From Egicoccus sp. AB-alg6-2 (GTDB lineage: Bacteria; Actinomycetota; Nitriliruptoria; Nitriliruptorales; Nitriliruptoraceae): DNA of 64,000 nt. A program made the translations under genes and the position numbers. Position 1 is the first letter of the stretch. Each line of letters opens with the position of its first letter. Below, piece by piece: positions 41,527 to 43,614 of this stretch. The DNA lies in the NCBI RefSeq assembly GCF_041821025.1, contig NZ_JBGUAY010000004.1:248001-312000 (forward strand). The letters run 5' to 3'. The notes beneath the pieces are model-generated. The model was not told the origin of the DNA, ran no database searches, and worked only from the letters and a program-made list of their open reading frames with translations.

Positions 41527-42147
41527 TCAGGCCTCGAAGCGTTCGATGACCTGTTCGGCGACCTGGCGCATCGTGACGCGCCGCTCCATCGCCTGGCGCT
41601 GCACGAACCGGAACGCCTCGGCCTCGGACATGCCCTCGTGCTGTTGCAGGAGCCCCTTGGCCTTCTCGACCAGTTTGCGGGCCTCGAGCCGGCCCTGCAG
41701 GTCGTCGACCTCGCGTTCGAGTCCCGACATCTCGCGGAAGCGACCCGCCGCGATCTCGACCGCCGGCAACAGGTCGTGCTTCTGGAACGGCTTGACCAGG
41801 TAGGCCATGGCACCGGCGCGGCGGGCCTTCTCGACGAGATCGCGCTGGCTGAAGGCCGTGAGGATCAGGATGGCGGCGAGCCGCTCCTTGGCGATCTCCT
41901 CGGCCGCCTGGATGCCGTCCATGACCGGCATCTTGACGTCGAGGATGACCAGGTCGGGCTCGAGTTCGCGGGTGAGCCGCACCGCCGACGCACCGTCGGC
42001 GACCTCGGCCACCACCTCGAAGCCCTCCTCCTGCAGCATCTCCTTGAGATCGAGGCGGATCAATGCCTCGTCCTCGGCGATCAGCACGCGGGTCGGGCGG
42101 CGCTCGGAGTCGGTCATGGGCTCGTGGCCGGGCGTCGTCTCGCTCAC
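41527..42147 (-). CDS. pdtaR: ANTAR-type response regulator
   Basis: Two-component regulator of 206 residues. The receiver domain (about residues 19-135) has the acidic pair in IAEDEALIRLD, the phospho-accepting Asp at residue 70 (VILDVKMPVMDG) and the Lys in YLVKPFQ. The ANTAR RNA-binding domain (about 145-200) carries RKLVEKAKGLLQQHEGMSEAEAF. The position near polA-rpsA matches PdtaR of Mycobacterium, which acts by transcription antitermination. Its partner kinase is not in the window. The GTG at 42147 overlaps the stop of the coiled-coil gene as GTGA, and AAGGGA precedes it, so I prefer it to the ATG at 42117. Confidence 0.88.
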   Translation of the reverse strand: MSETTPGHEPMTDSERRPTRVLIAEDEALIRLDLKEMLQEEGFEVVAEVADGASAVRLTRELEPDLVILDVKMPVMDGIQAAEEIAKERLAAILILTAFSQRDLVEKARRAGAMAYLVKPFQKHDLLPAVEIAAGRFREMSGLEREVDDLQGRLEARKLVEKAKGLLQQHEGMSEAEAFRFVQRQAMERRVTMRQVAEQVIERFEA

Positions 42148-42497
42148 GTGTGGTCCCTTCCAGGCCGCGCGGCCTCGAGCTCGAAGAGGCGGTCGAGGAG
42201 GCCGTCGCGCCGGTCGATCAGCGCCTGGGCCTCGTTGCGTGCTTCCTCGAGCAGTCCTGCGTGTCGGTCCAGATCGGTACGGGCTTCCCGCCACTCGCGG
42301 TCGGCCAGCGGTGTCTGCGCCACCAGCTTGCGGGTCTCGGCGTCCTCGGCGACCTCCCGGAGGTAGGCCACCTGCTCGGCCAGGACCCGTTCGGTCGCGC
42401 GGACCCGCTTCAGATCGTCCTGGATCCGGGCGAGGCGCTCACGCACCCGAGTGGTTTCGCGGTCGGTACCCGTGGCGGCTCCCGTCGTCTTCGTCAC
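42144..42497 (-). CDS. Coiled-coil protein coupled to the ANTAR regulator
   Basis: Unrecognised small protein of 117 residues. It is almost entirely charged helix with heptad-like spacing, from TDRETTRVRERLARIQDDL through LVAQTPLADREWREA to a Leu-rich end. No membrane segment and no Cys are present. Translational coupling (GTGA) with the response regulator suggests a shared function, such as an adaptor or inhibitor, but that is inference. The GTG at 42497 is the best start; upstream in the same frame is sequence overlapping the tRNA. Confidence 0.68.
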   Translation of the reverse strand: MTKTTGAATGTDRETTRVRERLARIQDDLKRVRATERVLAEQVAYLREVAEDAETRKLVAQTPLADREWREARTDLDRHAGLLEEARNEAQALIDRRDGLLDRLFELEAARPGRDHT

Positions 42498-42656: not shown

Positions 42657-42733
42657 TGGTACCCCGGGCGGGATTCGAACCCGCACTGGAACGAGTTTGA
42701 GTCGTTTGCCTCTGCCGGTTGGGCTACCGGGGC
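42657..42733 (-). tRNA. tRNA-Leu (anticodon CAA), short variable loop, CCA encoded
   Basis: A full cloverleaf folds on the minus strand. The acceptor stem GCCCCGG pairs with CCGGGGT, and the D arm has GG in the loop. The 5-bp anticodon stem AACGA/TCGTT holds loop CTCAAAC, and the T arm GCGGG-TTCGAAT-CCCGC and a 3' CCA are all present. The anticodon CAA (42697-42699) reads UUG, leucine. The variable loop has only five bases, unlike the long arm of ordinary bacterial tRNA-Leu, so charging by leucyl-tRNA synthetase is uncertain. The gene is intact in all stems. Confidence 0.88.
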
Positions 42734-42772
42734 CTGTGCGGCGACAGGGTAACGGGCTCGACTGAGAAGCGG

Positions 42773-43614
42773 TCAATCGGGGTCGCGCTGCACGTTCTTA
42801 CCGCAATGGGTCGGCGTCTGGGCATGGCAGTTGGGGCACAGGAGCCGGAGGTTCTCGAGTCGATTGTCGCGCGGGTCGCCGCTGATGTGGTCGAGGTGCA
42901 GGCTCAGGGGCCGCCCTCGCCATGCGCAGATCCCACAGACCGCGCAGGCCTACGACAGGATGCCCTCCTCGACCAAGCGCAATTTGAGGCGGTGCGTGTC
43001 GCCGAGCGCTCGACCGAAGACGAGAATGTCCGCCAACGGCTTGCGGCGCCGGCGCGGTTGACGGGTCCCGGAGGACCAGGCCTGGCCGGGCAGGGAGCCT
43101 GGGTCGATGCCCACCTCCCAGAGTCGCCGTTCGGTTGCGCGCCGCCCGAGGTGCTTCGTCGAGTCGAGTCCGAGGCGCCGCATGACCTCGTTCACCGACC
43201 GGGCGCCGTCGGCGGCGTGTCGGATCTCGTCGTCCGACCAGTCGAACCGGCGCCGTCGTCGAGCACCGTTCGGGGAGACGGGACGGTCCCAGTGGGCCGT
43301 GTCGAGGGCCAACCGACGGATGTGATCCTGCATCGACATCCAGGTGCCGCCGCCGACGGCGAGGCCGAGGGCGAGGAACACCTGGCGCATGTTGGTCGAT
43401 GCCGCGACCGCGTCCACCAGCTGGTCGTCGGTCCAGCGACGACGGCTCTCGGGCGTACCGATGTGGGGGCGTGGTCGAGCCCCAGTTCGTCGCAACGCCG
43501 GCGAACGGCGTCACTGCGGCCGCGCAGGCCCAGGTGGCGGTGCACCGCCGCCCAGGTCGTGCAGGCGGCGATGGCGTCGCGGAGTTGATCGTCGGTCCGA
43601 CGACGTGCAGGCAT
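42773..43614 (-). pseudogene. Broken HNH endonuclease with three N-terminal repeat modules
   Basis: The reading runs from the ATG at 43614 (MPARRRTDDQLRDAIAAC) but leaves frame at a run of five G on the plus strand (43465-43469). One extra base there would restore HIGTPESRRRWTDDQL. A TAG at 42950-42952 then interrupts it just where homologues have Tyr. Beyond the stop the same frame gives the HNH core LSLHLDHISGDPRDNRL and LLCPNCHAQ, ending at 42773. The repaired protein would have three helical modules starting TDDQL, TDDQL and SDDEI, probably DNA-binding, followed by the nuclease. Two independent lesions make decay more likely than error, though the frameshift alone could be base-calling. 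Confidence 0.75.

Follow-up and report, generated by a model that had tools for sequence, protein, structure and literature searches.

A class I tRNA-Leu(CAA) at the pdtaR locus of Egicoccus sp. AB-alg6-2, a probable replacement for the long-armed class II gene

In reviews, cytosolic tRNA-Leu is a class II tRNA, and tRNAscan-SE 2.0 counted a missing long variable arm against leucine identity. In E. coli, the leucine determinants are A73, A14, the A15:U48 Levitt pair, G18G19 and A20a, and the long arm is not crucial for LeuRS, which still charges armless variants (PMC9976931). An initial annotation of the tRNA described here presumed a long arm to be required for leucine identity, a premise that fails for the E. 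coli enzyme. In a search of mostly open-access literature we found no paper that treats short-loop tRNA-Leu of bacteria or phages as a class of its own, and a prior description is possible; class I tRNA-Leu sequences are already in databases, and the lineage is apparently undescribed in the literature.

The window, the whole 64-kb stretch of Egicoccus DNA analysed, contains a single tRNA gene. Direct reading of the minus strand at 42657–42733 gives an intact 77-nt tRNA with the anticodon CAA (42697–42699, loop CTCAAAC) and an encoded CCA. ARAGORN calls it tRNA-Leu(CAA) and the sole tRNA of the window, and Rfam RF00005 matches it over its full length (55 bits against a gathering score of 29; E = 4e-9). 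The acceptor stem is GCCCCGG/CCGGGGT with a terminal G1-U72 wobble, the D arm has three pairs with C13-A22 unpaired, and the T arm reads GCGGG-TTCGAAT-CCCGC. On the same strand lie a leucine-type D loop, AACCGGCAG (A14 A15 C16 C17 G18 G19 C20 A20a G21; 42712–42720), the discriminator A73 with the encoded CCA (42657–42660), and the variable loop CCAGT (42685–42689), whose last base, U48, stands opposite A15. The long arm of at least ten bases that marks a canonical class II tRNA-Leu is absent, as CCAGT has five. The five-base loop, intact cloverleaf, encoded CCA and CAA anticodon reported in the initial annotation are thereby confirmed, and the minus strand, which it did not give, is added. An allo-tRNA or tRNA-Sec-like identity, defined by a long variable arm together with acceptor and anticodon stems of extra length, was rejected given the 7/5 acceptor-T arrangement and short loop. 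Scanning for a sigma-70-like promoter and a terminator of the gene returned neither, a result of little weight in a high-GC actinobacterium. Beside the tRNA, a TAG just below 42953 interrupts, in frame, an HNH-endonuclease-like frame (42770–43495, minus strand), with an HNH-type motif (CAVCG...LHLDHISGD...CPNCH) located past the stop. A relative of the first part of this frame occupies the equivalent place in the related genome G215 (L327), and Pfam gave no match for the HNH-like frames neighbouring the tRNA.

The body of the tRNA bears all of the E. coli tRNA-body determinants: A73, A14, A15:U48, G18G19 and A20a. Within the same genome, the four class II tRNA-Leu all have A20a and G21, neither of which occurs in the 35 other class I tRNAs. 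Position 13-22 is unpaired in our tRNA and in those four, as against a pairing rate of 97% among the remaining class I tRNAs. A15:U48 is not diagnostic alone, being found also in tRNA-Lys, tRNA-Gln, tRNA-Trp and one tRNA-Gly. With these determinants in place and E. coli LeuRS having no need of the long arm, the earlier suggestion that the tRNA is charged differently is unsupported.

We then considered the leucine tRNA complement of Egicoccus sp. AB-alg6-2 (3.74 Mb in 24 contigs, 98.4% complete), from which 45 tRNAs were gathered by searches and region-wise readings. The four other leucine tRNAs (UAG, GAG, CAG and UAA) are all class II, and the class II tRNA-Leu(CAA) sought genome-wide is missing from these 45, leaving the class I gene as the only CAA tRNA found. 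UUG accounts for 87 of the 15,606 codons in the 37 predicted genes of the window (5.6 per 1000), so there is a real demand for reading it. Of the proposal that this is a specialised UUG decoder, what stands is that it is the only dedicated UUG decoder found in the genome, a special role being unsupported; the class II tRNA-Leu(UAA) could read UUG too. The 37 genes contain no UUA codon (0/15,606) and yet a class II tRNA-Leu(UAA) is kept, which is reminiscent of the bldA situation in Streptomyces. The genome encodes a single full-length LeuRS, an 874-aa frame scoring 908 bits (contig C7:174511-176994).

Taken with the genomic comparisons below, these data make it highly probable that the gene encodes a genuine leucine tRNA that decodes UUG, is charged by the single LeuRS and belongs to a structurally distinct lineage, one that would have displaced the class II gene repeatedly and here takes the place of the class II tRNA-Leu(CAA) at the pdtaR locus. 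LeuRS would recognise the body signature A73, A14, A15:U48, G18G19 and A20a with 13-22 unpaired, the long arm being dispensable. As read from its sequence, the tRNA appears to function in the ordinary way, and what sets it apart is its structure and its history.

BLAST with the gene matched phage and plasmid tRNAs, including some on actinobacterial plasmids, and a consensus query for DNA similarity reached 283 phage records with class I UUR-leucine-like tRNAs; most of the annotated phage matches among those listed are labelled simply tRNA-Leu. In our assembled tRNA pool, 239 distinct short-loop tRNAs combine A73, A15:U48 and A20a with an unpaired 13-22; their anticodons are those of leucine without exception (UAA 178, CAA 47, UAG 10, GAG 3, CAG 1). 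The UAA and CAA members were partly selected by anticodon through the UUR scan patterns, whereas the 14 CUN members were unselected and came in as neighbours. Stem positions are paired in 99.3% of cases over the 239, with compensatory changes of many types in the acceptor, anticodon and T stems. The Egicoccus tRNA carries this entire signature and belongs to a coherent class I tRNA-Leu lineage common to Actinomycetota and many phages. Pattern searches found class I UUR-leucine tRNAs in 78 of 296 sampled Actinomycetota genomes. In pattern scans of wider genome and viral collections, named hosts among the matches listed include Nocardia, Pseudonocardia, Microbacterium, Arthrobacter, Amycolatopsis, Cutibacterium, Corynebacterium and Mycobacterium, as well as a few genomes labelled Rokubacteria, Acidobacteria, Deltaproteobacteria and planctomycetes. 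The lineage in phages appears also to serve CUN codons, judging by its anticodons. Bacillus phage P59 (L079, 1417-1571) has two adjoining 77-nt class I tRNA-Leu genes with the anticodons UAG and UAA. In Mycobacterium phage prophiGD02-2 (L370), positions 1-50 resemble the 3' 50 nt of a class I tRNA-Leu and a second match lies elsewhere in the record; from these two matches, a class I tRNA-Leu is probably the attachment site of this phage in Mycobacterium abscessus.

To see whether the two classes exclude each other, we used just the 78 genomes that bear a class I form, of which 51 combine one class I anticodon with a detectable class II UUR tRNA. In none of the 51 was the same anticodon found in both classes: 40 have class I UAA with class II CAA, and 11 the reverse. 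Shuffling gave an expectation of 17.2 same-anticodon overlaps versus the 0 observed, and none of 20,000 shuffles was as low, although relatedness among the genomes inflates this test. The class I and class II UUR patterns miss divergent genes; matches to a strict class II CAA pattern, applied to 16 genomes, were too sparse to be useful, and patterns reaching the T loop superseded it. Seven genomes have class I genes for both anticodons with class II undetected by pattern, and one (G268) has class I for both together with class II CAA. Twenty named genomes are concordant, for example Nocardia pseudobrasiliensis with class I UAA and class II CAA, and in Pseudonocardia dioxanivorans both anticodons are class I. 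In genomes whose sole detected UAA tRNA is class I, UUA must be read by the class I form, and a charge other than leucine would be hard to reconcile with this.

The gene adjoining the tRNA encodes a pdtaR-like response regulator with an ANTAR domain (41527–42294, minus strand; Pfam PF00072, Response_reg, and PF03861, ANTAR, together with synteny), which bears out the ANTAR neighbour named in the initial annotation. The coordinates are those of a mechanical frame, and the true start is probably downstream of its first GTG. Families far apart in the phylum have a tRNA-Leu(CAA) within about 0.03-1.6 kb upstream of pdtaR, codirectional with that gene in some families and divergent in others. This slot is occupied by class I tRNA-Leu(CAA) at 28 loci and by class II at 15, and five further class II loci that we fetched had no pdtaR within about 3 kb. 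A single genus, g41, holds both forms, class II in G128 and G171 and class I in G023, G107, G161 and G193; a class II UAA tRNA looking like bldA, among other hints, suggests that this genus is Streptomyces. On a PdtaR tree we counted at least 12 class changes, 7 of them forced by well-supported branches, in counts uncorrected for all relatedness. Such changes are what functional interchangeability predicts, and the class I gene would stand in for the class II tRNA-Leu(CAA) at this conserved locus. Two genomes have more than one such gene: G268 (L358, L359) has class II at the pdtaR slot and an extra class I tRNA-Leu(CAA) away from pdtaR, and Micromonospora sp. HM5-17 (G305; L365, L366) has class I copies both at the slot and away from it. 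These arrangements are possible replacement intermediates.

That both classes use the same chromosomal slot would also be expected if each lineage had, on its own, converted its resident class II tRNA-Leu(CAA) into a class I form by losing the arm in place. However, class I copies from phages and distant bacteria alike have in common A9, C12-G23, C13 and a variable loop that is mostly NCAGU, features lacking in the class II copies of this genome. One spreading lineage fits this better than repeated arm loss, within the limit that a tRNA of approximately 75 positions is too short for a firm tree, and we consider arm loss in place unlikely. Displacement by a class I gene would therefore be the better account of the Egicoccus locus. 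In a broader and more tentative form, which we put forward as a possibility somewhat short of even chances, class I tRNA-Leu would be a single phage-borne lineage that has repeatedly invaded chromosomes and displaced native class II tRNA-Leu(UUR) genes in place, perhaps favoured because it evades nucleases or toxins acting on host or long-armed tRNA-Leu, and that has become the sole decoder of UUA and UUG in several actinobacterial groups.

As UUG is a minor leucine codon here, the tRNA might be specialised or regulatory, either as a controlled, bldA-like UUG decoder or as a partner of the neighbouring RNA-binding ANTAR regulator. The conservation of the pdtaR neighbourhood across the phylum is in keeping with this proposal, but the neighbourhood is retained with either class and in both relative orientations and so shows no tie to the short arm, and we saw no sign of regulation in the sequence. 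Since an ANTAR gene accompanies tRNA-Leu(CAA) of either class phylum-wide, the neighbour says nothing special about this tRNA; the regulatory role put forward in the initial annotation is unsupported, and we regard it as quite improbable.

A third proposal is that the tRNA has the body of a tRNA-Met with a mutated CAA anticodon, as in a human CAA tRNA that tRNAscan-SE 2.0 flagged partly for its missing long arm (PMC8450103). The initial annotation had likewise named, as an outcome that would refute it, a strong match to another tRNA family whose anticodon had been misread, and the nearest overall relative in the genome is indeed a CAU-anticodon tRNA (74%, against 58–64% for the class II leucine tRNAs). 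The diagnostic positions are nevertheless leucine's: the D loop, A15:U48, A20a, G21 and the unpaired 13-22 are of the leucine type, with A20a/G21 in no other class I tRNA here, and the CAU tRNAs of this genome differ on three counts, having G15:C48, a paired 13-22 and no A20a. Overall similarity and identity elements thus point apart, and we place more weight on the identity elements and the genomic evidence. MetRS depends on a CAU anticodon, the 239 distinct tRNAs of this architecture all have leucine anticodons, and the gene occupies the slot of its relatives' class II tRNA-Leu(CAA), all of which leave the tRNA-Met origin with very little probability. Equally improbable is a recent arrival of the tRNA with a phage or integrative element, for although relatives occur in the 283 phage records and on actinobacterial plasmids and the broken HNH-like frame adjoins the gene, the tRNA-pdtaR block and its surrounding transporter genes are syntenic in G039, G215 and G279, and these conserved flanks indicate that the locus itself is no mobile element and refute a recent insertion; a phage source may lie in the deeper past of the class I lineage.

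If true, a widespread natural class I tRNA-Leu would mean that the reduced determinant set known from the test tube suffices for bacterial LeuRS in vivo, and related genomes that differ in class at one locus would be a ready test system for arm-free recognition by LeuRS. The locus would also be a clean case of repeated tRNA gene replacement, with phages as a possible source, and isotype filters may misjudge genes of this kind.

Among known systems, the human CAA tRNA flagged by tRNAscan-SE 2.0 shares the CAA anticodon and the lack of a long arm but differs in its tRNA-Met body (PMC8450103). Human mitochondrial tRNA-Leu(UUR) is likewise recognised via A73 and A14 without a long arm (PMC9976931), but it is mitochondrial, has a structurally weak anticodon branch and is served by another LeuRS. 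In Mycobacterium tuberculosis, tRNA-Leu-2, 3 and 5 have been singled out for a long loop comparable to that of tRNA-Ser (PMC11541572); although that source does not take up the point, its choice of these three suggests that tRNA-Leu-1 and Leu-4 are short-looped, in agreement with the pair of class I UUR tRNAs present in genus g53 and with a class I CAA in Mycobacterium sp. IS-3022. Canonical bacterial class II tRNA-Leu shares with the Egicoccus tRNA a leucine anticodon, A73, A14, A15:U48, G18G19, A20a, G21, an unpaired 13-22 and, in relatives, the pdtaR-adjacent chromosomal slot; it differs in having a long arm in place of the five-base loop, and G9, G12-C23 and G13 in place of A9, C12-G23 and C13. 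The short tRNA-Leu genes of phages (Mycobacterium, Streptomyces, Gordonia, Pseudomonas, Bacillus P59, Enterococcus and others), annotated simply as tRNA-Leu and carrying UAA, CAA and also UAG anticodons, have the same architecture and identity set, and whereas they often lie in tRNA arrays, the Egicoccus gene is chromosomal and occupies a conserved locus.
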